Origin: Winogradskyella sp. PG-2
GTDB lineage: Bacteria; Bacteroidota; Bacteroidia; Flavobacteriales; Flavobacteriaceae
Direction: 5' to 3'
DNA: 64,000 bases
NCBI RefSeq assembly: GCF_000828715.1
Contig: NZ_AP014583.1
Location: 680,001-744,000 of the forward strand
The notes below the pieces were generated by a model. It saw nothing but the letters and a program-made list of their open reading frames with translations, ran no database searches and had not been told where the DNA came from. Below are positions 42,957 through 58,816 of this stretch, piece by piece (the stretch's first letter is position 1; every line of letters begins with the position of its first letter). Position numbers and translations under genes: made by a program.

Positions 42957-44024
42957 TTATGCCAATTCCGTTTCCACTTTAGTCATCCATCCAAATTTAT
43001 CTTCAAGCTGACCTGTTTTAATAGCATTTAAAGAATCATTTACTTCTAAACCTACAGGACTTTGGTCAGATACATGAATGGTTTCACCTTCTATACCTAT
43101 TTCTTGAATATAAGCAATACCCACAGCCGTTCCTGTTCCAAAGGCCTCTTCCAAAGTTCCATTACTTGATGCTTCTTTTATTTCATCAATCGTAATTTTG
43201 CGCTCAGTCACGTTATAATTCATAGCCTTAAGCATTTCTATGACACTAACTCGCGTTATACCATGCAAAACTGATCCATCCAATTCTGGGGTAATAAACT
43301 CTCCTTTAATTTTGAAGAAGATATTCATCGTACCCACTTCTTGAATATATTTGTGTTCAGCAGCATCTAACCATAATACTTGGTCGTAACCTTTTGATTT
43401 TGCTTGTTCTGTAGGTCGAATTGCAGCTGCGTAGTTTCCAGCAGCCTTTGCCTCACCAGTGCCTCCATGTGCAGCTCTTATATATTGTTTTTCTGCCCAT
43501 AACTTTATTCGCTTACTAAAAAATGGTCCAGCTGGTGAAGCCATAATAATAAACTTATAATATGTAGCTGCTCTCATACCAATAAATGGCTCATCTGCAT
43601 ACATAAATGGTCTCAAATATAATGCGCTTCCATCCTTAGGAGGAATCCAATTATGTTCTAAACCGACTAATTCTTTGAGTCCATCAACGAATAAATCTTC
43701 TGGAACATTTGGCATTCCCATACGATCAGCACTCAAATTCATACGCTTAGCATTATCCTCTGGTCTAAACAGCATTGGTTCACCTTTAGTATCCTTATAA
43801 GCCTTCATGCCTTCGAATATAGCTTGACCATAATGTAGTGCCATTGCGGCTGGATGCGTTGGAATCATTCCCATAGGAACAATTCTTGGATTTACCCATT
43901 CTCCATTTTCAAAATCACAAATAAACATGTGATCTGTAAATGTGGTTCCTAGTGGTATATTGTTGAAATCTAAAGCGTCTACTTTAGAGTTTTCTACTTT
44001 AGTTATTGAAATATTATAACTCAT
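42957..44024 (-). CDS. ilvE: Branched-chain amino acid aminotransferase
   Basis: A 355-aa PLP enzyme of fold-type IV, making 2-oxo acids from Leu, Ile and Val. Signatures: HYGQAIFEGMKAYKD, LSADRMGMPNVPEDL, GTGEAKAAGNYAA with the PLP-lysine, EVGTMNIFFKI and SVIEMLKAMNY. The position between E2 and E1 of the BCKDH operon points to catabolic use, feeding the dehydrogenase. A dispersed-repeat copy lies in the 47-bp gap to E2. Confidence 0.95.
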   Translation of the reverse strand: MSYNISITKVENSKVDALDFNNIPLGTTFTDHMFICDFENGEWVNPRIVPMGMIPTHPAAMALHYGQAIFEGMKAYKDTKGEPMLFRPEDNAKRMNLSADRMGMPNVPEDLFVDGLKELVGLEHNWIPPKDGSALYLRPFMYADEPFIGMRAATYYKFIIMASPAGPFFSKRIKLWAEKQYIRAAHGGTGEAKAAGNYAAAIRPTEQAKSKGYDQVLWLDAAEHKYIQEVGTMNIFFKIKGEFITPELDGSVLHGITRVSVIEMLKAMNYNVTERKITIDEIKEASSNGTLEEAFGTGTAVGIAYIQEIGIEGETIHVSDQSPVGLEVNDSLNAIKTGQLEDKFGWMTKVETELA

Positions 44025-44038
44025 ATTATTAGGTTTAT

Positions 44039-44068
44039 GAGATTCTGAAACGCGTTCAGAATGACAAG
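44039..44068. repeat. Dispersed repeat (copy 2)
   Basis: ATTCTGAA (44042-44049) and TTCAGAAT (44055-44062) are an 8-bp inverted repeat with 5-nt spacer, followed by GACAAG. The form GAGATTCTGAA-CG-TTCAGAATGACA is typical of a repeat family spread through Flavobacteriaceae genomes. Confidence 0.5.
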
Positions 44069-44071
44069 TCT

Positions 44072-45382
44072 TTATATTTTTCTGTTGGTATCAAATTGTT
44101 CAAAATAGTCAGCAACTCTTCGCACAAAACTTCCTCCTAAAAAGCCATCAACGACACGATGATCAAAAGAAAGCGATAAGTACATCATACTTCTAATAGC
44201 GATTTCATCTCCGTTTTCAGTTTCGATAACTTCTGGTCGTTTCTTTATTATTCCTAATGCAAGAATAGCAACCTCTGGTTGATTAATAATTGGAGTTCCC
44301 ATAACACTTCCAAAGGTTCCTACATTAGAAATAGTAAACGTGCTTCCTTTTATGTCATCACCAGACAACTTATTTTCTCTTGCTTTTTGAGCAAGCTCAT
44401 TAACATTGGTAGCTAAAGCTTTTAAATCTTTAGCATCTGCATTTTTAACGACAGGTACAATTAAGTTTCCACTTGGTAATGCTGTGGCCATACCAATATT
44501 AATATCTTCTTTAACTATGATATTATTCCCATCAACTGATGCATTAATATTCGGAAAATCCTTAACAGCTTTTGCTACAGCTTCAACAAATAAAGGTGTG
44601 AATGTTAATCGCTCACCATGCTTTTCTTGAAATGCCTTTTTATTAGCGTTTCTCCAATTCACCATATTGGTTAAATCTGCTTCTACATAAGCTGTGACGT
44701 GAGGCGACGTATGTTTAGAATAGACCATATGGTCAGCGATCATCTGACGCATACGGTCCATTTCTACAATTTTCCCTTTTCCTTTTTCAAATGTCAATTG
44801 CGGTATACGATATACCGTTGGATCTTTAGTAATGGGCTGTGCAAATTTATAAGGTCGTCCCTCTTCTATATATTGAAATAAGTCACTTTTACGCAACCTT
44901 CCATCGTTTCCAGTAGCTGGAATGCGTGCTAATTCTTCAAAACTGATATGCTGCTCTTTCGCTATTGATCTAATTAAAGGCGCAAAGAAATTATTAGAAT
45001 TTGAAACTGAAAATGACGTCGAACTTGAAGGTGTTTTAACTGATTTTGGTCTTTTTTGAGTTTTCTCTTTATGTTGAGACTTCTCGACTGTGCTCGGAGT
45101 GACATCTTGGTTCTTTTGTGCATTCAAGTTCGATTTCACTTCCGAAACTTCTAGTAAGGCAATAACTTCACCAACAGGAACGACATCTTTGGCCTGAAAC
45201 ATAGTTTTAACTAAAGTCCCTGAAGCGGGAGCTGGAACTTCATTATCAACCTTATCCGTTGCGACTTCTAAAATAATATCACCTTCTTCAAAAGTATCGC
45301 CTTCACTGATCAACCAATTTATTATGGTGCCTTCAGTAATACTCTCACCCATTTTGGGCATCTTAAGCTCAAATTCTTTCAA
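44072..45382 (-). CDS. Dihydrolipoamide acyltransferase (E2) of branched-chain 2-oxo acid dehydrogenase
   Basis: A 436-aa E2. The lipoyl domain is residues 1-80 with the lipoylated K44 in ATDKVDNEVP. A linker of about 55 residues holds a sequence coming from a dispersed repeat (NQDVTPSTVEKSQH). The peripheral subunit-binding domain is about 128-168 (LIRSIAKEQHISFEELARIP) and the catalytic domain has SFDHRVVDGFLGG with His and Asp. The start is TTG at 45382: KEFELKMPKMGES is the conserved first strand, and the next ATG would cut it. LipB (12610) would supply the octanoyl group. Confidence 0.92.
   Translation of the reverse strand: MKEFELKMPKMGESITEGTIINWLISEGDTFEEGDIILEVATDKVDNEVPAPASGTLVKTMFQAKDVVPVGEVIALLEVSEVKSNLNAQKNQDVTPSTVEKSQHKEKTQKRPKSVKTPSSSTSFSVSNSNNFFAPLIRSIAKEQHISFEELARIPATGNDGRLRKSDLFQYIEEGRPYKFAQPITKDPTVYRIPQLTFEKGKGKIVEMDRMRQMIADHMVYSKHTSPHVTAYVEADLTNMVNWRNANKKAFQEKHGERLTFTPLFVEAVAKAVKDFPNINASVDGNNIIVKEDINIGMATALPSGNLIVPVVKNADAKDLKALATNVNELAQKARENKLSGDDIKGSTFTISNVGTFGSVMGTPIINQPEVAILALGIIKKRPEVIETENGDEIAIRSMMYLSLSFDHRVVDGFLGGSFVRRVADYFEQFDTNRKI
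45071..45107. repeat. Dispersed repeat inside the E2 coding region (copy 3)
   Basis: On the minus strand the segment GATGTCACTCCGAGCACAGT followed by CGAGAAGTCTCAACAT has the same core (CAGTCGAGAAG) as copy 1 at 16029-16040. It is translated as part of the flexible E2 linker without breaking the frame. Confidence 0.55.
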
Positions 45383-46028: not shown

Positions 46029-46625
46029 TTACTTTTTAAAAGTTTCTCTGAGCGTTTTATAAATATCATCTTGAACTTTCATGTTTTCTGGCACTTCTCT
46101 TAATGGTTCTACAACTTTTAAGAATTCATGACAATCAGATGGCAATTGCTGATAAAGTTCAGTACCTTTTGTCTTCCAAGCTATCATTTCGTCAGTAACT
46201 CCTCTAATCACTTTTCCAGGATTTCCGACAACCAAACTTCTGTAAGGAATTTTTGTTTCGGCTTTTATAAAAGACATCGCACCTATAATACATTCATCAC
46301 CAATTTCGGCATCATCCATAATTACGGTATTCATACCAATGAGACAATTTCTTCCCAAGTTAGCGCCATGAATTATAGCTCCATGTCCAATATGCGCACT
46401 TTCTTTTAAAATAATAGATTTACCAGGAAACATGTGTACTGTACAGTTCTCTTGCACATTAACACCATCCTCTAAAATAATCTGTCCCCAATCACCACGA
46501 ATTGCAGCTCCAGGACCTATATAACAGTTTTTACCAATAATAACATTTCCTGTTACTGCAGCCAAAGGATGCACAAAACTACTTTCGTGAACAACTGGTA
46601 TGTAGCCTTGGAAGCTGTATATCAT
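46029..46625 (-). CDS. paaY: Left-handed beta-helix thioesterase-like protein PaaY
   Basis: A 198-aa hexapeptide-repeat protein resembling gamma-carbonic anhydrases (PLAAVTGNVIIGKNCYIGPG, IRGDWGQIILEDGVNVQENC, HIGHGAIIHGANLGRN). The three metal-site His residues (VHMFPG, AHIGHG) are present. In the phenylacetate pathway PaaY is a thioesterase that removes dead-end CoA esters. It is the last gene of the paa operon, 1 bp after the enoyl-CoA hydratase gene. Confidence 0.88.
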   Translation of the reverse strand: MIYSFQGYIPVVHESSFVHPLAAVTGNVIIGKNCYIGPGAAIRGDWGQIILEDGVNVQENCTVHMFPGKSIILKESAHIGHGAIIHGANLGRNCLIGMNTVIMDDAEIGDECIIGAMSFIKAETKIPYRSLVVGNPGKVIRGVTDEMIAWKTKGTELYQQLPSDCHEFLKVVEPLREVPENMKVQDDIYKTLRETFKK

Positions 46626-46626
46626 T

Positions 46627-47379
46627 TTACTTAAATCCTTTTAATTTCTCTTTTGTAAACTCAGACAGTACTAAACGTCCACTTGTTTGAGCACGTTCAG
46701 CCAAAAGTTCATCCCAATCGTCTGTACCTTTCCAGAATACTTTTTTCATTTCTAACATAGCTTCCGTATTGTAAGTACATAAATGCTCTGCAGTTGTTTT
46801 AATAGCTTCATCAAGTTCTTCAGTACTTTCATAAACATGCGTAAATAAGCCTTTTTGTTTAGCCCATTCTGCAGGATAAAATGAATTAGCATCAATGGCA
46901 ATTTGCGACATAGCACTTAATCCCATTTTACGTTCAATAGCTGGTCCAACTACGAAAGGTCCAATCCCAATATTTAACTCACTTAACTTAATGGCTGCGA
47001 ATTTAGTTCCCATGCAATAATCGGTAGAAGCTGCCAATCCAACTCCACCTCCAACAGTTTTTCCTTGGATACGTCCTATTATAAACTTAGGACATTTACG
47101 CATGGCGTTAATGACATTAGCAAAGCCAGAAAAGAACACTTTTCCCGTAGAAGCATCATTAATATTTATCAATTCCTTAAAGCTTGCACCAGCACAAAAC
47201 GTTCGGTCTCCACCACTCTTTAGAACTATGACTTTAATCGCATCATTCTGACCAGCTTCAGTAATAGTATTCGCCAATTTTGCTAGTATATCTCCTGGTA
47301 GAGAATTGTGTGCAGGATGAAAAAATTCTATGTAACCTACTTCGTTTTCTATGGTTTGTTTTACGTATGGTTTTGTCAT
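46627..47379 (-). CDS. Enoyl-CoA hydratase/isomerase family protein of the paa operon
   Basis: A 250-aa crotonase-fold protein: DRTFCAGASFKELI forms the oxyanion region and GKTVGGGVGLAAS the second. Of the two usual hydratase Glu residues, the one in SELNIG is present but the position in GGGVGLA has Gly. It fills the place of PaaF (2,3-dehydroadipyl-CoA hydratase) in the operon, yet with one Glu it might act as an isomerase or a PaaB/PaaG-like partner. It is 1 bp downstream of paaZ. Confidence 0.8.
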   Translation of the reverse strand: MTKPYVKQTIENEVGYIEFFHPAHNSLPGDILAKLANTITEAGQNDAIKVIVLKSGGDRTFCAGASFKELININDASTGKVFFSGFANVINAMRKCPKFIIGRIQGKTVGGGVGLAASTDYCMGTKFAAIKLSELNIGIGPFVVGPAIERKMGLSAMSQIAIDANSFYPAEWAKQKGLFTHVYESTEELDEAIKTTAEHLCTYNTEAMLEMKKVFWKGTDDWDELLAERAQTSGRLVLSEFTKEKLKGFK

Positions 47380-47380
47380 A

Positions 47381-49879
47381 TTATATTAATCCAAATTGTT
47401 CAAAATGGTGATTTAAGTGCTTACGCTCCATTAAATACCATTCATATTTATTTAATTCTCCAAAAACCATATTGTTCAATATTGCATCTGGATTTTCTTT
47501 AAAATACTCTAAATAAACTTCACGTTGTGCTTTAAATTTCTCAAGCGCTGTGGCAAAATCTTCATGCTTCAAGTCATCAAGTGTATCCTTTTCTAACAAA
47601 GGAAACTGAGAATTTTGAGGAAACTTATTATAGTTCCATAAACTGTTTTTTACTTTCTCTAAAATCTTTTCTGGTGTAGAAATTTCAAAATCTTGAATTT
47701 CACCTGCAGCTATTTTATAGGTATATTCTAAATGCTCTAACATATGCTGAGGCGTCATAATGCCCCATTTAGGCTTTGTATCCTTTGAAAGCTCACTTAA
47801 GCATTCTTCAATTTTTTCAGTAGTCATTTCAACAAATGTTTCTTGCTTCTTCTGAACCATGGTCAATACCGTTGCTAATGCCACTAATTCGTCATCGGCA
47901 TCAAAGATTTCAGCAAACCATTTTACGATTCCGCTTGGATGTTCAGCGCTAGCAACATCACGATCAATTTTTTGCTTACATGTTAAGCGCACATAAATCG
48001 TATCGTTATGATATAACGGTCTTAAGAAACGACATTCTTCTAACCCATAATTTGCAGATACCGGTCCTTTATTAGGATGTACAAATAATCCTGCCGCAGC
48101 CGAAATTATAAAATAGCCATGAGCAGTTCTTTTTTCAAAAATACTTCCATCCAAAGATGTAATATCTGTATGCGCATAAAAATGATCCCAAGTTACATTT
48201 GCGAATGAAATGATATCTGTATCTGTTATAGTACGCTTATGAGTTTTCATTGACATACCTGCCTCAATATCTTCCCAATGGTATTTAAAAGGATGCTGTT
48301 CTGCTTCCTTATACTTAGCATTCTGTTGATAAATGCCTGTTATTTCTGTAATCGTTGTTGGTGAACCTTGAATTGCTGTACGTTGCAAATAGTGTTTAAT
48401 ACCACGCATACCCCCCATTTCTTCTCCACCTCCAGCACGTCCTGGACCTCCATGCACCAAATAAGGTAATGGCGAACCATGACCTGTACTTTCCTTAGCG
48501 CTTTCCCTGTTGAGTACTAAAATACGACCATGATGACTTGCTGCATTAACAACATATTCTTTAGCTATTTTATCATCATTAGTAGCAATAGAAGATACTA
48601 GTGAGCCTTTACCCATTTGAGCCAAAATAATGGCTTCATCTAAGTTTTTATAAGGCATTATGGTACTTACTGGACCAAATGCTTCACGCACATGAATAAC
48701 AGTATTTTGAAATGGATGATCTGCCCTTAAAAGTATTGGGCTTATAAAAGCACCTTTTTTAGCATCTGCTCCAATAGTTTCTATTTTATCTAAATCACCA
48801 TAAACAATTTGAGCTTCTTTAGTCAAATCAGTGACAGACTCTCTAACTGCATTAACTTGTTGTCGACTCACTAAAGATCCCATTCTTACTTCCTTAAGTC
48901 TTGGATCACCAATAGTCACTTTATCTAAAGCTTTCCCTAATGAAATTTGAACATCTTCTACTAGGTTTTCCGGCACAATAATTCGTCTTATCGCAGTACA
49001 TTTTTGCCCAGCCTTAACGGTCATTTCTTTCCGAACTTCTTTTATGAATAAATGAAATTCTGGTGTTCCTGGCACAGCATCTTCTCCTAATATCGAAGCG
49101 TTTAATGAGTCTGATTCCATTGTAAATGGCACAGATTCTTGAATTAATCTTGGATGTGCTTTTAGCAATCGACCAGTCTGGGCAGAACCAGTAAAGGTCA
49201 CTACATCTTGAGATTCTACTGTATCCAAAATAGTTCTTACTGTTCCATTAATGATTTGAAGTGCTCCTTCTGGAAGGATTCTTGAATCAATAATAGTTCT
49301 AGCAACAGCTTCTGCTAAATAAGATGATGAAGGAGCTGGTAAGACCACAGCTGGCATTCCAGCCATCCAATTCACTGCACATTTTTCTAACATTCCCCAT
49401 ACTGGGAAATTGAAGGCGTTAATATGAACAGCAACTCCTTTTTTAGGCACCATGATATGATGTGCCATAAAACGTCCACCACGTGATAAATCTATAGCAT
49501 CACCTTCTACGTGATACGGTTGATTTGGAAATAGTTTTCTCAAGGATGCATTAGCAAAAAGGTTTCCAAAACCTCCTTCGATATCAATCCAACTATCTAC
49601 TTTGGTTGCTCCGGTTCTATAACTTAATTCATAGAACGCATTTTTTCTTTTGGTAAGATATAACGCTAAACTTTTAAGCATGTTTCCACGCTCTTGAAAT
49701 GTCATTTTACGAAGTGTTTCACCACCTTTTGTTCTTCCGTAATTAAGTATTTCTGGAATATCTAATCCTTCAATGGCTACACTCGTGAATGCTTCACCAG
49801 TTACGGCATCTAGAATTGGTGTTCCTTCTTCTTTACCTGTTGTCCAATTGCCTTGAACATAATGTTGTATTTTTTTCAT
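47381..49879 (-). CDS. paaZ: Bifunctional oxepin-CoA hydrolase/semialdehyde dehydrogenase PaaZ with a C-terminal DUF1569/DinB-like fusion
   Basis: An 832-aa protein; typical PaaZ is about 680 aa. Residues about 1-520 are an aldehyde dehydrogenase with Cys in KAGQKCTAIRR. Residues about 530-680 are a MaoC-type hydratase (TWDHFYAHTDITSLDG, TAHGYFIISAAAGL) that opens the oxepin-CoA ring. The last 150 residues add a helical domain (WGIMTPQHMLEHLEYTYKIA, WYLMERKHLNHHFEQFGLI) that resembles DUF1569 of the DinB superfamily, with His residues placed as in a metal site. The extra domain may bind or reduce a toxic intermediate. Confidence 0.88.
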   Translation of the reverse strand: MKKIQHYVQGNWTTGKEEGTPILDAVTGEAFTSVAIEGLDIPEILNYGRTKGGETLRKMTFQERGNMLKSLALYLTKRKNAFYELSYRTGATKVDSWIDIEGGFGNLFANASLRKLFPNQPYHVEGDAIDLSRGGRFMAHHIMVPKKGVAVHINAFNFPVWGMLEKCAVNWMAGMPAVVLPAPSSSYLAEAVARTIIDSRILPEGALQIINGTVRTILDTVESQDVVTFTGSAQTGRLLKAHPRLIQESVPFTMESDSLNASILGEDAVPGTPEFHLFIKEVRKEMTVKAGQKCTAIRRIIVPENLVEDVQISLGKALDKVTIGDPRLKEVRMGSLVSRQQVNAVRESVTDLTKEAQIVYGDLDKIETIGADAKKGAFISPILLRADHPFQNTVIHVREAFGPVSTIMPYKNLDEAIILAQMGKGSLVSSIATNDDKIAKEYVVNAASHHGRILVLNRESAKESTGHGSPLPYLVHGGPGRAGGGEEMGGMRGIKHYLQRTAIQGSPTTITEITGIYQQNAKYKEAEQHPFKYHWEDIEAGMSMKTHKRTITDTDIISFANVTWDHFYAHTDITSLDGSIFEKRTAHGYFIISAAAGLFVHPNKGPVSANYGLEECRFLRPLYHNDTIYVRLTCKQKIDRDVASAEHPSGIVKWFAEIFDADDELVALATVLTMVQKKQETFVEMTTEKIEECLSELSKDTKPKWGIMTPQHMLEHLEYTYKIAAGEIQDFEISTPEKILEKVKNSLWNYNKFPQNSQFPLLEKDTLDDLKHEDFATALEKFKAQREVYLEYFKENPDAILNNMVFGELNKYEWYLMERKHLNHHFEQFGLI

Positions 49880-49881
49880 AA

Positions 49882-51090
49882 TTAAACGCGTTCAATTATT
49901 GCCGCATAACCTTGTCCTACTCCAATACACATCGTTACCAACGCATATCTTTTGTTCTGTTCATGTAATTCTAAAGCTGCAGAATACGCTATTCTCGCTC
50001 CTGTCACACCCAATGGATGGCCAATAGCAATCGAACCGCCATTTGGATTTAATCTTGAATCATCATCTGCTAATCCCCAAGCTCTCGTACACGCTAATGC
50101 TTGGGCAGCAAAAGCTTCATTTAACTCAATTACATCCATATCATCCATTGTCAATCCAGCTTTTTCTAAAGCTTTATTTGATGCTTGAACTGGACCAATG
50201 CCCATAATTCTAGGCTCAACGCCTACCACAGCAGAACTTACAATTCTAGCCAATGGTGTTAAGTTATATTTTTTAACCGCATCTTCTGATGCTATAATTG
50301 TTGCAGCGGCACCATCGTTTAATCCTGATGAATTTCCCGCCGTAACACTTCCGCCTTCTTTTTTAAAGGCTGCTCTTAGTTTTCCTAATACTTCTAATGA
50401 TGTGTTTGGCTTTACAAATTCATCTTTTGAAAACTGAATGGGATCTTTTTTACGTTGTGGTATTTCTACAGTGACTATTTCTTTTGCTAGTCGTCCGTTT
50501 TCTTGTGCTTTTGATGCTTTCATCTGGCTCCAATAGGCAAACTTATCTTGGTCTTTTCGGGAGATATTATATTTTTCTACTAGGTTCTCAGCAGTAACAC
50601 CCATTCCATCCGTGCCATATAATTTATGCATTTTAGGGCTTATAAAACGCCATCCAAAAGTTGAATCATACATTTTAGAATCCCCTCCAAAAGCTGTAGA
50701 CGGTTTAGCCATGACGTATGGACCTCTTGTCATATTCTCTACACCACCAGAAATAAACAGATCGCCATCTCCTGCTTTTATAGCACGATTGGCATGAATG
50801 ATTGCAGATAATCCTGAGCTACATAATCTATTAACTGTTTCACCTGGAACTGTAAAGGGTAATCCAGCCAGCAAAGAAGACATTCTCGCTACATTACGAT
50901 TATCCTCACCTGCTTGGTTAGCACAACCCATTATCACATCGTCATATGCTTCTTTTGGAATATTTGGATTTCGTTTTACAACTTCTTCAATCACTAACGC
51001 TCCTAAATCGTCCGTACGAACAGCTGATAATGTGCCTTTATAATTTCCTATTGGTGTACGCACACCGTCTATAATATATGCTTCATTCAT
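49882..51090 (-). CDS. paaJ: 3-oxoadipyl-CoA thiolase
   Basis: A 402-aa thiolase starting at ATG 51090 (MNEAYIIDGVRTPIGNYKG); an upstream ATG at 51129 lies in paaI. Catalytic residues: the nucleophile Cys in NRLCSSGLSAI, His in GHPLGVTGAR and Cys in TMCIGVGQG. In the pathway it makes acetyl-CoA and succinyl-CoA from 3-oxoadipyl-CoA, and acts a second time on 3-oxo-5,6-dehydrosuberyl-CoA. It begins 1 bp after the paaI stop. Confidence 0.93.
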   Translation of the reverse strand: MNEAYIIDGVRTPIGNYKGTLSAVRTDDLGALVIEEVVKRNPNIPKEAYDDVIMGCANQAGEDNRNVARMSSLLAGLPFTVPGETVNRLCSSGLSAIIHANRAIKAGDGDLFISGGVENMTRGPYVMAKPSTAFGGDSKMYDSTFGWRFISPKMHKLYGTDGMGVTAENLVEKYNISRKDQDKFAYWSQMKASKAQENGRLAKEIVTVEIPQRKKDPIQFSKDEFVKPNTSLEVLGKLRAAFKKEGGSVTAGNSSGLNDGAAATIIASEDAVKKYNLTPLARIVSSAVVGVEPRIMGIGPVQASNKALEKAGLTMDDMDVIELNEAFAAQALACTRAWGLADDDSRLNPNGGSIAIGHPLGVTGARIAYSAALELHEQNKRYALVTMCIGVGQGYAAIIERV

Positions 51091-51091
51091 A

Positions 51092-51499
51092 TTATTCTTC
51101 CCATTCTTTTTGAGTTCTATAAACCACACCTTTAAAAAGTGCGACTAATTCATCACCACGTTTTACTTCGATAATATTAAACCCTAATTTGTTATTTACT
51201 TTTTCAATCACAGATTCAGCAACCAACTCATCTCCTTCATCTAATGCTTCAATATGATTGATGCTTGTTTCAATCGATACTGAATATTTGCCATGTGTAT
51301 TTGCTGCAAACCCAAAAGCTGTATCTGCTAAAGAATAGCTAATTCCACCATGAGCTTTGTTCATGCTATTAAGCATGTCCTTTCTAATGGTCATTGCCAC
51401 TTTACATCTGCCAATCTCACATTCTAAAATCTCAATACCTAACCATTGACTGTAGGCATCTTGACTCAACATTTTATATGGAATCTGTTCTCCTTTCAT
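51092..51499 (-). CDS. paaI: Hydroxyphenylacetyl-CoA thioesterase PaaI
   Basis: A 135-aa hotdog-fold thioesterase: NKAHGGISYSLADTAFGFAAN is the catalytic segment with the His-Gly-Gly turn and Asp. It releases CoA from stalled ring-hydroxylated intermediates. The ATG is at 51499 directly before the paaH stop, with no gap, and paaJ follows. Confidence 0.9.
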   Translation of the reverse strand: MKGEQIPYKMLSQDAYSQWLGIEILECEIGRCKVAMTIRKDMLNSMNKAHGGISYSLADTAFGFAANTHGKYSVSIETSINHIEALDEGDELVAESVIEKVNNKLGFNIIEVKRGDELVALFKGVVYRTQKEWEE

Positions 51500-52654
51500 T
51501 TAAAAGAACGTCTTACTTTCCTTATTCATTTTGCGTAATAATGGACTACAACGATACCTGTCTTCGTGATACTCATCGTACAATTCATCTAACTTAGACA
51601 CACACCAATTTATTCCCTTTTCATCTGCCCAAGCCAATAAACCTTTTGGGTAATTTACACCTTTGGTCATCGCATTATCAATATCTTTTGCTGATGCAAC
51701 ATTCAAAAACAAAGCATCTGCAGCTTCATTAATTAACATTACTAGAACACGATCGAATATCTGTTGCGCTAATACTTTATCTTCTTTTGGTTCTGGTTTA
51801 ATAGCTCCTTCCGAATAATCATAGTATCCTTTTCCTGATTTACGACCCAAATAACCAGCTTCTGAAAGCCGTTTTTGTGTAAATGCCGGCTTATATCTTG
51901 GATCGAAATAAAATGCTGTAAATACAGTTTCTGTAACTGTATAATTGACATCATTGCCTATAAAATCCATTAATTCAAATGGTCCCATTCGAAAACCACC
52001 CAAAGATTTTAAACTATGATCTATAGTCGCAAAATCTGCTATGCCTTCTTCATAAATTCGCAATGATTCCCCATAGAAAGGACGAGCGACTCTATTGACA
52101 ATAAAACCTGGTGTGTCTTTAGCGACAGCTACTACTTTTTTCCAATCAGAAATCGTATCAATGGACCTCTGAAGTACAGCTGCAGATGTTTGAATTGCAG
52201 GAATCACCTCAACTAGTTTCATTAAAGGCGCTGGATTAAAAAAATGAATACCGACACAACGTTCTGGTTTTTCTAAAGATGCTGCTATAGACGCAATTGA
52301 TAAACTAGACGTGTTTGATGCTATGATACAATCTTCAGATACGTAACCTTCAAGTTCTGAAAAGACTTTCTTTTTTATCTCAAGGTTTTCAACAATCGCT
52401 TCAATGGTCAAGTTTGAGTCTGATAAATATTTCAAGTTATCTACATAACTAATATTAGACTGAATTCTATTCTTTTCATCAGCATCTATTCGCCCCTTTT
52501 CAATAAGGCGATTTAATATTTTCTCAAGGCTTGCCTTAGCTCTATCTAAAGCAGCATGATTAGTATCGTATAACTTTACTGCGCAACCTGAAGTAGCTGC
52601 AACTTGTGCAATACCACTTCCCATTGTTCCTGAACCTATAATTCCTATGTTCAT
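51500..52654 (-). CDS. paaH: 3-hydroxyadipyl-CoA dehydrogenase PaaH
   Basis: A 384-aa NAD-dependent enzyme with an N-terminal Rossmann motif (IGIIGSGTMGSGIAQVAA), the catalytic His in VGIHFFNPAPLMKLVE, and two C-terminal helical repeats (FELMDFIGNDVNYTV, GLLAWADEKGINW). It oxidises 3-hydroxyadipyl-CoA to 3-oxoadipyl-CoA. The length is somewhat above a single-domain enzyme, as in pathways with two C-terminal units. Confidence 0.92.
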   Translation of the reverse strand: MNIGIIGSGTMGSGIAQVAATSGCAVKLYDTNHAALDRAKASLEKILNRLIEKGRIDADEKNRIQSNISYVDNLKYLSDSNLTIEAIVENLEIKKKVFSELEGYVSEDCIIASNTSSLSIASIAASLEKPERCVGIHFFNPAPLMKLVEVIPAIQTSAAVLQRSIDTISDWKKVVAVAKDTPGFIVNRVARPFYGESLRIYEEGIADFATIDHSLKSLGGFRMGPFELMDFIGNDVNYTVTETVFTAFYFDPRYKPAFTQKRLSEAGYLGRKSGKGYYDYSEGAIKPEPKEDKVLAQQIFDRVLVMLINEAADALFLNVASAKDIDNAMTKGVNYPKGLLAWADEKGINWCVSKLDELYDEYHEDRYRCSPLLRKMNKESKTFF

Positions 52655-52663
52655 AGTTTTATA

Positions 52664-53599
52664 TTAAAACGGTAGATTTTTTACATCTACATTACCGCCA
52701 GACAAAATAATGCCGACGCTTTTATTTTTAAATTCTTCTTTTTTCTTCAAAACGGCCGCAAAAGGTACAGCACATGAAGGCTCAATAATGATTTTCATGC
52801 GCTCCCAAATGAGTTGCATCGCATTTACAATTTCGTCTTCTTCTACACGTATAATCTTATCGACATGCTTTTGAATAATCGGAAAATTGCGATCTCCTAA
52901 GTGCGTTCTTAGACCATCTGCAACCGTATGAAAACTATCGTTAGTTTCAATTTCACCGGATATTAAAGAACGATACGCATCATCTGCTTCCATTGGCTCA
53001 CCACCTATGACTTTGCAGTTATTAGAAAAATAATGCGCTGCCAAAGCCGTTCCTGCAATAAGACCTCCTCCTCCAATTGGTGTTAAAATTACGTCTAATT
53101 CTGGATATTCCTCCAGCAATTCCATAGCAGCTGTACTGTTACCATAAATCACCTCATCTTGGTTAGAAGGATGTAAAAAAGATGCTCCATTTTCTTCCCT
53201 TATTTTATTTGCTGTAGCTTCTCTAGCCTGAGGTGTAGATTCGCATTCTATAATTTCACCTTCGTAAGTTTTCACACCATCCTTTTTTACTTGAGGTGCA
53301 TTTTCTGGCATTACGATGTACGCCTTAACATCTAATTTTTGAGCTGCTAATGATACCGCTTGTGCAAAGTTTCCTGAAGAATGAGTTACCACTCCGCGTT
53401 TTCTTTCTTCTTCTGAAAGCGATAGAATTGCATTAGCCGCTCCACGCATTTTAAACGCTCCCATTTTTTGGAAGTTCTCACATTTAAACACAATATTGGC
53501 ACCTACCATTTCATTTATTAAGCTCGAACTTAATACTGGAGTTTTATGAATAAATGGCTTTATTCTATTATGAACTTCTATGAGGGTTTCTTTAGTCAA
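52664..53599 (-). CDS. Threonine dehydratase-like PLP enzyme inside the paa operon
   Basis: A 311-aa fold-type II PLP enzyme: the lysine in AFKMRGAANAI, SSGNFAQAVSLAA for the phosphate, and the glycine loop ILTPIGGGGLIAGTALAA. It resembles serine/threonine dehydratase or serine racemase without a regulatory ACT domain. It starts at TTG 53599, immediately after the paaG stop, so it is translated with paa genes. No role in phenylacetate breakdown is established; a deaminase supplying 2-oxobutyrate or a D-amino-acid enzyme are possible. Confidence 0.85.
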   Translation of the reverse strand: MTKETLIEVHNRIKPFIHKTPVLSSSLINEMVGANIVFKCENFQKMGAFKMRGAANAILSLSEEERKRGVVTHSSGNFAQAVSLAAQKLDVKAYIVMPENAPQVKKDGVKTYEGEIIECESTPQAREATANKIREENGASFLHPSNQDEVIYGNSTAAMELLEEYPELDVILTPIGGGGLIAGTALAAHYFSNNCKVIGGEPMEADDAYRSLISGEIETNDSFHTVADGLRTHLGDRNFPIIQKHVDKIIRVEEDEIVNAMQLIWERMKIIIEPSCAVPFAAVLKKKEEFKNKSVGIILSGGNVDVKNLPF

Positions 53600-54385
53600 T
53601 TAGTTGCCTTTGAAATTTGGTTTTCGTTTTTCTATAAATGCTGCAACTCCCTCTGCATAATCATTACTAGTTGCTGCTTCAATTTGTAATTTAGATTCTA
53701 AAGCCAATTGATCTTCTAGAGTATTAGTCATTGACTTATTAAACAACTCCTTAATTAAGCCTAAGGCCTTAGTTGGCATATTGGCCAACTTAATTGCCAA
53801 TTTAGAGATCGTTTCCTCAAATTCTTCTACAGAAACAGATTTATAAATCATTCCCATTTTTTCGGCTTCTTCTGCTGAAATCTTATCACCTAACATCGCT
53901 AACGCTTGTGCTTTCTGAAAACCTATTAAGCGCGGTAAAAAAAACGTACCTGCACTGTCAGGAACCAAACCAATTAAACTAAAGGCTTGAATAAAACTCA
54001 CCTTCTCGTGAGCCACAACAATATCACAAGCTAATGCGATATTAGCTCCTGCTCCAGCTGCCACACCATTAATAGCTCCAATGATTGGTTTTTTAATTGA
54101 GCGTAACCTTGTAATTATTGGATTATAATGCTCTTCTAATATTTTTTTAAATCCTGGGTTCAATTCAGGATTTGTTACTTCTTTTAAATCTTGACCAGCG
54201 CAAAAGGCTTTTCCGTTTCCTGTTAGCACTATTGCTCTTACATCGGCATTAGTTTCACAGTCATCTAAAATAGATTGAAGACTTAATGCCATTTTACGAT
54301 TGAAGCTATTAAACACTTCTGGTCTATTTAGCGTTATGTGCGCTATTTTATTTTCAATCTTTACTAGAATTGAATTATTACTCAT
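53600..54385 (-). CDS. paaG: 1,2-epoxyphenylacetyl-CoA isomerase PaaG
   Basis: A 261-aa crotonase-fold isomerase that turns ring-1,2-epoxyphenylacetyl-CoA into oxepin-CoA and also shifts a double bond later. It aligns well by eye with E. coli PaaG: LNRPEVFNSFNRKM, GKAFCAGQDLKEV, NGVAAGAGANIALACDI, LIGLVPDSAGTFFLPRLIG (catalytic Asp in VPD) and EGVAAFIEKRKPNFKG. 17 bp after paaD. Confidence 0.95.
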   Translation of the reverse strand: MSNNSILVKIENKIAHITLNRPEVFNSFNRKMALSLQSILDDCETNADVRAIVLTGNGKAFCAGQDLKEVTNPELNPGFKKILEEHYNPIITRLRSIKKPIIGAINGVAAGAGANIALACDIVVAHEKVSFIQAFSLIGLVPDSAGTFFLPRLIGFQKAQALAMLGDKISAEEAEKMGMIYKSVSVEEFEETISKLAIKLANMPTKALGLIKELFNKSMTNTLEDQLALESKLQIEAATSNDYAEGVAAFIEKRKPNFKGN

Positions 54386-54402
54386 ATCTATGTTTTTGCT
54401 GT

Positions 54403-54903
54403 CTATCTAAGACATTTAAAATAATCAAAAGGTTCTTGGCAATCATCGCATTGAAACTGCGCTTTGCATGCTGTAGAACCAAACTGACTTACTAATCGTG
54501 TATTTGTCGATGCACAATTCGTACATTTCACAATACGTTTTCCATTCAACAAAACATCTTTATCAGCGTCTGCTTCTAAAGGTGCTGCTATACCATAATC
54601 TTCTAATGCTTTACGACCTCTTGGCGTAATCCAATCAGTTGTCCAAGCTGGATATAAAATTAAATCAATTTCAGATTCATAACCAGCTTCTTTTAATGCT
54701 TTTTTAATATCATCACCTATCACATCCATTGCTGGACAACCACTATAGGTTGGTGTGATTTCTACCTTGACAATATCATTTAAAAAAATCGCGGAACGCA
54801 CTACTCCCATATCCATAATAGACAAAACTGGAATTTCAGGGTCTGACACCTGTTCCAGTATTGAAATTAATCTATGATCAATATTTTGTTCAGTTGTTAC
54901 CAT
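54403..54903 (-). CDS. paaD: Phenylacetyl-CoA epoxygenase accessory protein PaaD
   Basis: A 166-aa protein with an N-terminal MIP18/DUF59 domain (LEQVSDPEIPVLSIMDMGVV, TPTYSGCPAMDVIGDDIKKA) and a C-terminal zinc ribbon with four Cys (CTNCAS, CDDC). It is needed for iron-sulfur or di-iron assembly of the PaaABCE complex. It overlaps the end of paaC by 7 bp. Confidence 0.93.
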   Translation of the reverse strand: MVTTEQNIDHRLISILEQVSDPEIPVLSIMDMGVVRSAIFLNDIVKVEITPTYSGCPAMDVIGDDIKKALKEAGYESEIDLILYPAWTTDWITPRGRKALEDYGIAAPLEADADKDVLLNGKRIVKCTNCASTNTRLVSQFGSTACKAQFQCDDCQEPFDYFKCLR

Positions 54904-55652
54904 TCCATATTTGGATACGTACGTTGCATATATTGCAAGTCACTTAACAAATAGCCTAAATGCTCTGTATGAATGCCTTCTTTACCACCTTTTTGAAAGT
55001 ATTTAGATTCTGGTATTTGAAGTGTTACTTCTTCTAAAAGTTCACCTACTTGATTATAGTAGTTATCCTTTAATTTAGTAACATCAACACCAATTCCTTG
55101 AGCAACCATAGCTTTATCCGCTTCGGTTTGATGAAACAGCTCGTCAGTGTATGTCCATAAATCATCAATGGCTTCTTGCATTTTTGTTTTACTTTTTTCT
55201 GTTCCGTCACCTAATCGTTTTACCCAATCTGAAGAGAAACGTTCATGATAACTCACCTCTTTAATGCACTTATTCGCTATTGCAGATAATATAAGATCTG
55301 AGCTTTTCTGTAATTCTGAAAGAAATGCTAAATGATATACGTCGAATAAAAACTGACGTCCTAAGGTATATGCAAAGTTTGTATTAGGTTGCTCTACTAA
55401 TAATACGTTTTTGTAATCGCGTTCTTTACGTAACATAGCAATATCATCTTCGGTTCTGTCATCTCCCGCTATCTTAGCTGCATATTGAAAGTAGCTCCTC
55501 ACTTGCCCAAATAAATCCAATGAAATATTAGTACAAGCAATATCCGTTTCTAGGCTTGGACCATGGCCGCATAATTCCCCCATTCTTTGTCCTAGAATAA
55601 GGCTGTTGTCTGCAATACCGAGTATGTAATTATATAAGTTTTCGTTTTTCAT
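54897..55652 (-). CDS. paaC: Phenylacetyl-CoA epoxygenase subunit PaaC
   Basis: A 251-aa non-catalytic subunit of the ring-1,2-phenylacetyl-CoA epoxidase. It has a ferritin-like helical fold resembling PaaA but without a full di-iron set: LILGQRMGELCGHGPSLETDIA, ISLDLFGQVRSYFQYAA, EVSYHERFSSDWVKRLGDGT. Holds PaaA in the core complex. A 100-bp gap with two hairpins separates it from paaB. Confidence 0.93.
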   Translation of the reverse strand: MKNENLYNYILGIADNSLILGQRMGELCGHGPSLETDIACTNISLDLFGQVRSYFQYAAKIAGDDRTEDDIAMLRKERDYKNVLLVEQPNTNFAYTLGRQFLFDVYHLAFLSELQKSSDLILSAIANKCIKEVSYHERFSSDWVKRLGDGTEKSKTKMQEAIDDLWTYTDELFHQTEADKAMVAQGIGVDVTKLKDNYYNQVGELLEEVTLQIPESKYFQKGGKEGIHTEHLGYLLSDLQYMQRTYPNMEW

Positions 55653-55656
55653 GTTT

Positions 55657-55729
55657 ACTTTCCGCGAAAGTGGAAATCGTTTTAATTAAACATTTAAATA
55701 ATTTTATGTGTTTCCCGATTTCTCGGGAA
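55657..55729. promoter_or_regulatory. Two hairpins in the paaB-paaC gap
   Basis: ACTTTC-CGC-GAAAGT (55657-55671) and TTCCCGA-TTTC-TCGGGAA (55712-55729) lie in the only large gap of the paa operon. Neither has a T-tail on the minus strand, so they may affect mRNA processing rather than end transcription. Confidence 0.4.
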
Positions 55730-55752
55730 TTGTAATTAGAGTAAAACTCAAA

Positions 55753-56040
55753 TTACATATGTTTTACTTCGTCTGGTAAATCATAAAATGTTGGGTGACG
55801 ATATACTTTATCTTGTGCTGGCTCGAATAGCTCACCATTATTTTCAGGATTTGACGCAGTAATGTTTTTAGATTCTACTACCCAAATACTAACACCTTCA
55901 TTTCTTCTGGTATATACATCACGTGCATTTTCTAGCGCCATATCAGAATCCGCAGCATGTAAACTACCACAGTGTCTGTGTTCTAATCCGTTTTTACTTC
56001 TAACGAAGATTTCCCATAAGGGCCATTTTTTTGTTGACAT
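55753..56040 (-). CDS. paaB: Phenylacetyl-CoA epoxygenase subunit PaaB
   Basis: A 95-aa structural subunit of the PaaABCE complex. The start ATG is at 56040 (MSTKKWPLWEIFVRSKNGLE), the conserved beginning of the family; a longer frame from 56109 lies inside paaA. Motifs HRHCGSLHAADSDMALENAR and YTRRNEGVSIWVV fit the family. It begins 10 bp after the paaA stop. Confidence 0.95.
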   Translation of the reverse strand: MSTKKWPLWEIFVRSKNGLEHRHCGSLHAADSDMALENARDVYTRRNEGVSIWVVESKNITASNPENNGELFEPAQDKVYRHPTFYDLPDEVKHM

Positions 56041-56050
56041 GATCTTATTA

Positions 56051-57007
56051 TTATACTGCTTGTTTTTCTTTTCGTTCTTGTTTCTTACTCGCATGAGCCA
56101 TTGCCGCATCTCTTACCCATTCGCCTTTCTCCCATGCTCCAACTCTTGCTTTCATTCGTTGCTTATTCATAGGCCCATGACCTTTGACAACTTGCCAAAA
56201 TTCATCCCAATCGATTTCACCGAAATCATAACTTCCACGCTCTTCATTCCATTTTAAATCTGGATCTGGGACAGTCAATCCAATTAAATCCGCTTGTGGT
56301 ACTGTTTGATCAATAAACTGTTGACGTAAATCGTCATTAGATTTACGCTTTAATTTCCATTTCATTGATTGTGCTGTATGTATAGAAACATCATCTGTTG
56401 GCCCTAACATCATTAAACTTGGCCACCACCAACGATTCAATGCATCTTGCGCCATTTCTTTTTGTTCTGGTGTTCCGTTTGCAAGCTTTATCATGATTTC
56501 ATAACCTTGACGTTGATGAAAACTTTCTTCTTTACATACACGAATCATTGCTCTAGCATAAGGACCATAAGATGTATTACATAAAGGTACTTGATTGATA
56601 ATCGCTGCACCATCCACTAACCAACCAATAGCTCCCATATCTGCCCAAGTAATAGTTGGGTAATTAAAAATACTCGAGTATTTGGCCTTACCTGTATGTA
56701 ATTGTTCATACATCTCTTCTCTAGATATACCTAAAGTTTCTGCAGCAGAATATAGATACAATCCATGACCTGCTTCATCTTGTACTTTTGCCAACAAAGC
56801 AACTTTACGACGCAACGATGGTGCTCTTGTGATCCAATTACCTTCTGGCAGCATACCTACGATTTCAGAATGTGCATGCTGAGACATTTGCCTTATATGC
56901 ATCTTACGATACTTTTCTGGCATCCAATCCTTGGGCTCAATTTTTTCATCACGTGCGATACGTGTTTCAAATTGTACTTCTAAATTTTTTATTTGTTCTT
57001 CACTCAT
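56051..57007 (-). CDS. paaA: Phenylacetyl-CoA epoxygenase catalytic subunit PaaA
   Basis: A 318-aa di-iron oxygenase subunit that puts an epoxide on the aromatic ring of phenylacetyl-CoA. The ferritin-like helices contain [18 protein letters not shown] and [15 protein letters not shown], the two E-x-x-H iron-binding motifs, plus [22 protein letters not shown] N-terminal residues ([14 protein letters not shown]). Full length for the family, 17 bp after paaE. Confidence 0.97.
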
Positions 57008-57024: not shown

Positions 57025-58098
57025 TTATACATCGAAATCAACAACTACTTTATCAGAAGTAGGTACTGCTTGGCAGCTTAATACTAAATTCTGCGACACT
57101 TCTTTATCGTCTAAGGCATAATTAATTTTCATTTCTACTGATCCATCAATAACCTCACATTTACAAGTACTACAAACACCACCTTTACAAGCAAATGGTA
57201 AATCCGCACCAGCGCCTAGTGCAGCATCTAAAATATTATCATATTCTTTTGTCATGGTAAATAAAAACTCTTTACCACCATCTACAATTGTTACTTCTGT
57301 ACCTTCTACATTTTGTTGCGCCAAACGCTCGGCTCTCTTAATATCTTCTTCAGATAGACCAGTTACAAATAACTCGTAATGCACCAATTCTTTTGGTAAA
57401 CCTACATTAATAAGATATTCACTAACGTAATTCACCATCTTCTCCGGTCCGCAAAGGAATACTTCATTAGTATCAGGTACATCTATAAACGTCTTGGCTA
57501 GTATCTGCATTTTTTCATCGTCAAATCGTCCATTAAACAACTCTATATCTCGTCGCTCTTTGGTTAAGAAATAATAAATTTCTAAACGTCCGAAATAAGT
57601 ATTTCTTAACTGTTCTAATTCCTCTTTGAATATAATCGATTTAGCCGTTTTATTTACATAAAACAATTTACATGTAGAATTTGGCTCAGAAGACAAATGT
57701 GCCTTTAGCATTGATAATACTGGTGTGATTCCGCTACCAGCAGCAAAGAACAAGTAATTTTTAGATGATTCTGGCATTACCTCAACACCAAAATTTCCAC
57801 TTGGTGCCATAACCTCTATATTATCACCCGAGTTTAACTCTTCATTGATATAGGTTGAAAATTTACCACCAGAAATTTGTTTAACAGCTACTTGCCATTG
57901 ACCATCTGAAGGTCCAGAACATAATGAATAGGAACGCCTAACATCTTCATCATTAATATCAGCTTTTAAGGTTAAATGTTGACCTTGTCTAAACTTAAAC
58001 TGTTCTTGCAAATTAGAAGGCACATCAAAAGTTACCACTGAAGTATCTTCGGTTTCTTTATAAATATCTGCAACTTTTAAGTTGTGAAATTCCGCCAT
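57025..58098 (-). CDS. paaE: Phenylacetyl-CoA epoxygenase reductase PaaE
   Basis: A 357-aa reductase starting at ATG 58098 ([16 protein letters not shown]); the longer frame from 58119 enters the operator. It has an FAD domain ([12 protein letters not shown]), an NAD(P)H domain ([16 protein letters not shown]) and a C-terminal plant-type 2Fe-2S ferredoxin domain with Cys in [12 protein letters not shown] and a later SCQAV. It passes electrons to PaaA. It is the first gene of the operon here, unlike in E. coli, where paaZ and paaA come first. Confidence 0.95.
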
Positions 58099-58117: not shown

Positions 58118-58135
58118 AACTAACAACTGTTAGTT
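58118..58135. promoter_or_regulatory. Operator palindrome 1, downstream of the paa promoter
   Basis: AACTAACA-AC-TGTTAGTT, an 18-bp dyad between the -7 box and the paaE start, at about +3 to +20 of the predicted transcript. Confidence 0.7.
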
Positions 58136-58142
58136 TGTTTTA

Positions 58143-58172
58143 CAAAGTTATTAAGTTTAATTCTAATTACAA
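58143..58172 (-). promoter_or_regulatory. Promoter of the paa operon
   Basis: On the minus strand TTG (58172-58170), a spacer of 19 bp, and TAACTTTG (58150-58143): the full Bacteroidota consensus. It is flanked on both sides by copies of one palindrome. Confidence 0.75.
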
Positions 58173-58175
58173 AAT

Positions 58176-58199
58176 AAAAACTAACAATTGTTAGTTTTT
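58176..58199. promoter_or_regulatory. Operator palindrome 2, upstream of the paa promoter
   Basis: AAAAACTAACAA / TTGTTAGTTTTT, a perfect 24-bp palindrome that overlaps the last two bases of the tetR stop codon. It shares AACTAACA-NN-TGTTAGTT with operator 1. Confidence 0.7.
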
Positions 58200-58770
58200 A
58201 TTTTGTGTAGATTCCTTTTATTAAGATTTGATTCAATGTATTAGATAAATTTTCAAGCTCTAAATCTTCCTTTTTTGGTATCCAAATGTAAAGTGAGCGC
58301 AAAGTGGTTAAAATAGAAAACATCATTACATCAGGTTTAACATTTGTTATTTTTCCTGCTGCAATACCCTGTTTAAGGATAGCAATAAAATCGTTTTCAT
58401 AATCGATACGCAGTTTTTGATAATAATCTAATTTTTCTAGAAGATGCATCCAGTCATTATTTAATGAAGCCATACCATATATGTTTTGGCTAGAAATTCT
58501 AACATGCAATTCTATAATTTGTTTAAGTTTACCAATACAATCTTCTTCTGATGATTGAATTAGTTTCATACCAGCAGTAAATTCTTCTGCCAAAGAAATT
58601 ATAATCGTATTGAGAATAGCTTGCTTAGAATTTATATGATTATAAAGACTTGCCGCCTTAATTCCCATTTCTGCAGCTAAATCTCGCATAGTGACAGCAC
58701 TATAGCCTTTTTCTTTAAAAAGCTTTGCCGCTACCCTAATAATTTCTTCTTTTCGAGTTTCTTGTTTCAA
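58198..58770 (-). CDS. TetR family transcription regulator, probable repressor of paa
   Basis: A 190-aa regulator taken from TTG 58770 (MKQETRKEEIIRVAAKLFKE); the TTG at 58806 adds 12 residues and would nearly touch the divergent gene. The helix-turn-helix is at about residues 22-48 (YSAVTMRDLAAEMGIKAASLYNHINSKQ). The C-terminal ligand domain has no recognisable signature. It lies directly upstream of the paa operon, and twin palindromes flank that operon's promoter, so it is the likely PaaR-type repressor with phenylacetyl-CoA as the inducer (inference from the paa regulators of other phyla). Confidence 0.88.
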   Translation of the reverse strand: MKQETRKEEIIRVAAKLFKEKGYSAVTMRDLAAEMGIKAASLYNHINSKQAILNTIIISLAEEFTAGMKLIQSSEEDCIGKLKQIIELHVRISSQNIYGMASLNNDWMHLLEKLDYYQKLRIDYENDFIAILKQGIAAGKITNVKPDVMMFSILTTLRSLYIWIPKKEDLELENLSNTLNQILIKGIYTK

Positions 58771-58816
58771 ACAATCATACTGTTTATTATTTGTAAATTT
58801 AAGCAAAAAAGAAGCT

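Follow-up and report, generated by a model that had tools for sequence, protein, structure and literature searches.

A conserved candidate operator between tetR and paaE in Flavobacteriaceae and its second copy in Winogradskyella sp. PG-2

It is quite probable that a PaaR-like regulator of the TetR family represses the phenylacetate catabolism (paa) operon of Winogradskyella sp. PG-2 through an ancestral operator, O1, and that a second operator, O2, was gained later together with a -33 promoter element. The sequences and positions of the two sites, the conservation of the operator, its co-occurrence with the regulator and an extra stretch of DNA that is absent from aligned relatives all point in this direction. 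Coordinates refer to the 64-kb stretch of DNA that was analysed as a whole (hereafter, the window), and the features under study are collected in Table 1.

Table 1. Positions of the tetR-paaE promoter elements and surrounding genes in the window
Feature	Position	Strand	Comment
tetR (proposed paaR)	58198..58806	-	TetR_N and TetR_C_24 over cut-off; aligned with 28 relatives
O2, candidate second operator	58179..58196	-	0 mismatches; exact twin pattern in 1/68 genus and 2/397 family genomes
38-bp perfect palindrome	58169..58206		encloses O2 and the 3' end of tetR (last two codons and stop), plus TTTTG of the -33 element
-33 element TTG	58170..58172	-	sequence reading; spacing N19 to the -7 box
-7 element TAACTTTG	58143..58150	-	sequence reading; fits the TAnnTTTG sigma-A box
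O1, candidate ancestral operator	58118..58135	-	0-mismatch palindrome; counterpart (up to 2 mismatches) in 148/148 tetR-paaE regions
paaE, first gene behind the promoter	57025..58098	-	TIGR02160 413.2 bits, just under the cut-off of 420.8
Remaining paa cluster	46029..57007	-	paaA, B, C, D, paaG-like, dehydratase-like, paaH-like, thioesterase (PaaI-like), thiolase, paaZ, enoyl-CoA hydratase-like, paaY-like

Results

The tetR gene and the paa cluster

In the window, tetR precedes paaE on the same strand, in the gene order tetR-paaE-A-B-C-D; paaE adjoins tetR in 46 of 49 loci of the family sample (L017-L065). The tetR product scores 51 bits with the Pfam model TetR_N (cut-off 24) and 45.2 bits with TetR_C_24 (cut-off 26.4), none of the 20 NCBIfam equivalog matches listed for it reaches its cut-off, and among the matches listed it is up to 85% identical to Winogradskyella proteins. 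The longest tetR open reading frame begins at a TTG; comparison with relatives indicates that the true start is probably a TTG near position 58770. This protein is very probably the Bacteroidota counterpart of PaaR.

Within the cluster, the PaaA, B, C, D, thiolase and PaaZ proteins exceed the cut-offs of their NCBIfam models, matches to the PaaG, PaaH and PaaY models stay below them, and the thioesterase and the hydratase, which are named from ORF sequence and position alone, have no NCBIfam match at E 1e-30. The best NCBIfam match of the dehydratase-like gene inside the cluster (52664-53599) is BhcB, at 411.5 bits and short of the cut-off of 550.

A search for the motif ahead of paaK elsewhere in the genome, as proposed in the initial annotation, found no target: there is no further perfect site genome-wide, and the best TIGR02155 match of this genome scores 65 bits, below the cut-off of 646.3. 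Nor is this cut-off passed by any protein of the 68 genus genomes, and PaaK was dropped as a second target. The TIGR02155 cut-off is strict (it is passed in 1 of 14 control genomes), and matches of the PaaK type below it were found in one genus genome at full length (G125, 564.7 bits) and in eleven others (164-175 bits), so that ligases of the PaaK kind may still exist in the genus.

Two perfect sites flank a predicted promoter

O1 (AACTAACAACTGTTAGTT) and O2 (AACTAACAATTGTTAGTT) both match the operator AACTAACA-NN-TGTTAGTT with 0 mismatches, O2 at 16 of 16 defined bases, and their centres are 61 bp apart. Reading along the minus strand, the tetR stop codon is followed by O2, a TTG (58172-58170), a 19-nt spacer (N19), TAACTTTG (58150-58143), O1 and the ATG of paaE (58098). 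The gap between the end of O2 and the TTG is 6 nt, and that between the -7 box and the start of O1 is 7 nt. The initial annotation had placed two copies of the palindrome around the paa promoter, one just past the -7 box and the other just before the -33 element, and both the presence of the copies and these distances agree with it; its overlap of O2 with the tetR stop does not hold, as the 18-bp O2 ends 1 bp short of the stop codon (58198-58200).

A report on F. psychrophilum places the sigma-A box TAnnTTTG at -12 to -5 (PMC9723704). If the -7 box of the window is numbered in the same way, O1 would occupy positions from about +4 to +21 and O2 from about -41 to -58. Both features looked for in a flavobacterial sigma-A promoter, a TAnnTTTG -7 box and an upstream TTG -33 element (at N19), are present. 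A sigma-70 style promoter scan, which returned seven promoters compared to a shuffle mean of 5.2, was set aside as aimed at the wrong promoter class.

In the whole genome of 3,811,479 bases, O1 and O2 are the only perfect copies of the operator, and the runners-up have two mismatches. With up to three mismatches allowed, there are 54 genomic matches to the motif vs. 73 to a reversed control pattern, i.e., no excess, and the window contains two matches compared to a shuffle mean of 1.13 (at least two were found in 38 of 100 shuffles). What is striking is the perfection of both copies; their number at up to three mismatches is unremarkable. A wider regulon in this genome was rejected since the three sites with two mismatches are at no paa gene and near-matches do not exceed the control. 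By names taken from ORF reading alone, the L003 site is flanked by a 157-aa ORF and a GTP cyclohydrolase-like ORF, the L004 site by aldehyde dehydrogenase-like and ligase-like ORFs, and the L005 site lies within a peptidase-like ORF.

A single candidate operator is conserved in tetR-paaE regions

Loci were drawn from a family sample of 120 genomes, a genus sample of 60 genomes and the best 80 of the named loci listed, with the twin locus of genome G261 added. In total, 190 loci were scanned; 11 were set aside (L052, L054 and L056, where paaE is not beside tetR; L123 and L124, at contig ends; and six with a long intergenic gap) and 31 repeat sequences were removed, leaving 148 distinct regions. 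Each region was scanned up to the paaE start, beginning 60 bases ahead of the tetR stop, with up to three mismatches allowed.

The operator was found in all 148 regions (100 perfect matches, 46 with one mismatch and 2 with two), the expectation from composition shuffles being 0.04 operator-bearing regions per 148. The six loci set aside for their tetR-paaE gaps of 405-503 bp, mostly from Kordia, carry one operator each (6/6). In a base-conservation table where G261 is represented by its upstream copy, 11 of the 12 bases of ACTAAC/GTTAGT are invariant over the 148 regions and the remaining base differs in a single region; the operator centre is R-NN-Y. A single copy is present in 146 regions (57 from the genus, 46 from the family sample and 43 from the further named loci) and two copies in the remaining 2, the window and G261. 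Twin palindromes are not supported as a general layout.

The candidate operator occurs in two promoter layouts

The three bases of a TTG located seven bases before the operator are conserved in 144 (T), 146 (T) and 135 (G) of the 148 regions. In the first layout (122 regions, including the window), this TTG ends the TAnnTTTG -7 box and the operator is at about +4 to +21. In the second (31 regions), the TTG is a -33 element, and 20 bases further on a TAnnTTTG box overlaps the right half of the operator (31/31). Seven regions fit both layouts and two fit neither. The same conserved TTG seems to belong to the -7 box in one layout and to act as the -33 element in the other. By parsimony on the TetR tree, with the regions fitting both layouts or neither left open, the layout would have changed four times.

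The "full-consensus" promoter of the initial annotation is present in the window as TTG-N19-TAACTTTG, but such a -33 element is not usual for this layout. A TTG at a spacing of 17-23 is found in 3 of the 122 layout 1 regions, the window among them, and hence the textbook -33 element of the window is itself unusual. Since such a TTG is missing from 119 of these 122 regions, the -33 element may matter little.

The motif accompanies the proposed regulator across genomes

Occurrences of ACTAACNNNNGTTAGT were tallied over the family sample of 120 genomes described above, with genomes classed as TetR-positive when their best TetR match was at least 148 bits (50 genomes; the remaining 70 include four with 77-97 bits). 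The pattern is present in 50 of 50 TetR-positive genomes vs. 10 of the 70 others (Fisher p 8e-24), and p is 7e-32 when R-NN-Y sites alone are counted, a restriction that was chosen post hoc. Eight of the ten motif-bearing genomes that have no TetR orthologue lack the R-NN-Y centre; for the other two (G048 and G072), the flanks of the site that were examined gave no match to any of 15 proteins of the window.

In three of the 50 genomes (G010, G054 and G074), tetR is not beside paaE, and the site precedes the paaE match by 29 bp; G010 has another site upstream of paaZ. Taken together, the presence of the operator in 148 of 148 regions, its association with TetR in genomes and its staying with paaE in these three lend comparative support to the proposal that the adjacent TetR is the regulator and the palindrome the paa operator. 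A second operator in G087 (L220, position 2050) lies 20 bp upstream of tetR, which suggests autoregulation there. For further copies of the operator in G010 (L212, position 2389) and G079 (L216, position 3635), no target gene was identified.

Within the genus, the motif is present in 66 of 68 genomes, as a single copy in 63 and as two copies in 3 (the window genome, G163 and G169); the extra sites of G163 and G169 lack the R-NN-Y centre. In both genomes without the motif, a contig end cuts tetR. With mostly one copy per genome, the regulon in the genus would comprise essentially one promoter.

The candidate second operator lies in a 38-bp palindrome

The 38-bp palindrome that encloses O2 is the longest perfect one in the window; when the window was shuffled 30 times at constant composition, the longest reached 28 bp. 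The second longest in the window (26 bp) is at 18561-18586. The exact twin pattern occurs in the window alone among the 68 genus genomes and in the window and G261 among 397 family genomes; the relaxed twin pattern occurs in the window alone among 395 class genomes (a draw without G261; the draws overlap). The G261 twin likewise sits between tetR and paaE, and its centres are separated by 50 bp. The TetR proteins of the window and G261 are far apart on the tree, so the two twin gains (n = 2 in our data) look independent.

Alignment with five relatives reveals 34 additional bases in the window, close to the tetR stop, and these carry O2 and TTTTG. To judge from this alignment, O2 seems to be a recent arrival, brought by a short mirror-image segment by which the promoter was completed as well. 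The palindrome has an outer left arm similar to ancestral tetR bases (ACAAA; the alignment is two bases out of register), and its right arm ends in the mirror image of the left. On the strength of this resemblance and of the mirror-image end, we tentatively propose fold-back copying: a single event at the end of tetR could have written the whole 38-bp palindrome, i.e., a second operator plus a -33 element mirroring the last tetR codons. This is a possibility on the doubtful side, which depends in part on where the alignment gaps are placed. If it is true, one mutation raised promoter strength and repression together. O2 was also considered as a plain duplicate of O1: arms of 24 nt are 88% complementary, but the bases shared outside the palindromic core are A/T-rich only, and O2 need not be a copy of O1.

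As RNA, the 38-mer is predicted to form a hairpin of -17.1 kcal/mol (z -7.2). With such a strong fold, O2 could have been retained for another reason. The hairpin is exactly at the tetR stop, with an A-rich left arm and a U-rich right arm, and O2 might thus be mainly a transcription terminator of tetR whose operator match is secondary or a relic of O1 copying. However, a terminator function accounts poorly for the agreement with the operator at every defined base, the stem is poor in G-C pairs, a terminator scan did not return a hairpin at the tetR stop, and the palindromic stretch is present in 0 of the 5 aligned relatives. We regard a terminator as an unlikely explanation of O2, and an operator as the preferred one.

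Two other roles for O2 appear somewhat less likely still, and about equally so. The initial annotation suggested DNA looping, by which dimers bound to O1 and O2 would bridge and the resulting 61-bp loop would trap or exclude RNA polymerase. O1 and O2 are identical, and the centre spacing in G261 is 11 bp shorter, so the helical phase is similar (291 vs. 274 degrees at 10.5 bp per turn). Yet a phase match seen in only two cases is weak and was rejected as proof of looping (n = 2), and beyond it we found no positive evidence for this mechanism; a single site is present in 146 of 148 regions, TetR-family repressors normally work as dimers, and 61 bp is short for a DNA loop. Alternatively, O2 could be a roadblock to tetR read-through into paaE that does not act on the paa promoter, as the two genes are co-directional and O2 is at the end of tetR; but O1 by itself would suffice as a roadblock, and 57 other genus regions of the same gene order make do with a single site.

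Discussion

In the mechanism that we favour, a TetR dimer would bind ACTAAC-NNNN-GTTAGT and repress the paa operon until it is released by a CoA-thioester of the pathway, most likely phenylacetyl-CoA. O1, which would lie within the first transcribed bases, would do most of the blocking, against early transcription. The short sequence acquired in this lineage where tetR ends would have added O2 and, at N19, the TTTTG of the -33 element. The promoter would likely have become stronger and at the same time be repressed by two dimers that bind independently, with the O1 dimer covering the start site and the O2 dimer occluding DNA just upstream of the -33 element.

Several known systems are comparable. 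PaaR of Thermus thermophilus HB8 (TTHA0973) is likewise a TetR-family protein associated with paa genes (PMC6651687, PMC9493321). The window operator, written as C-N-AAC-R-NN-Y-GTT-N-G, has the same layout and centre spacing as the promoter-derived T. thermophilus site CNAACGNNCGTTNG, although the bases beside the centre are G/C in the latter and mostly A/T in the former; the selection-derived consensus AACnAACGTTnGTT is tighter, and its spacing fits the window operator less well (PMC6651687). The likeness to T. thermophilus PaaR is one of operator layout and gene context.

PaaR of Burkholderia cenocepacia (BCAL0210) is also a TetR-type repressor of paa promoters, several of them as opposed to essentially one here (PMC2770484, PMC9493321). 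Its inverted repeat is located between -35 and -10, an arrangement that resembles layout 2 and not the layout 1 of the window, and the operator ACCGACCGGTCGGTT, with a tighter centre and other bases, fits the window operator less well (PMC2770484). Azoarcus MbdR is a TetR-family repressor released by the CoA-thioester of its pathway, as proposed here; its operators span start sites, and one promoter has three predicted operators (PMC4424350). Conversely, the MbdR operator is ATAC-N10-GTAT and the pathway is that of anaerobic 3-methylbenzoate degradation (PMC4424350). A review describes known PaaR proteins as responsive to phenylacetyl-CoA (PMC9493321), and by analogy the same compound is the most likely inducer here.

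The analysis puts forward a concrete candidate operator, together with a candidate regulator, of phenylacetate catabolism in Flavobacteriaceae. Among the top results of a literature search that covered few subscription journals, no paper dealt specifically with a PaaR operator of this family. The regulator-operator pair, of the PaaR type, is of an already known kind; what is new is the twin-site arrangement with its palindromic stretch. The 146 one-site regions and the two lineages with two sites constitute a natural experiment that can gauge a second repressor site and a new -33 element. Another such experiment is offered by the two layouts, with the same operator over the start site in one and over the -7 box in the other.

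At 40908-45382, genes for a fused 2-oxoacid dehydrogenase E1, for E2 and for a branched-chain aminotransferase adjoin the paa cluster. Judging by these neighbours and by the lack of a protein over the strict PaaK cut-off, phenylacetyl-CoA may come from phenylalanine via phenylpyruvate and not from phenylacetate.
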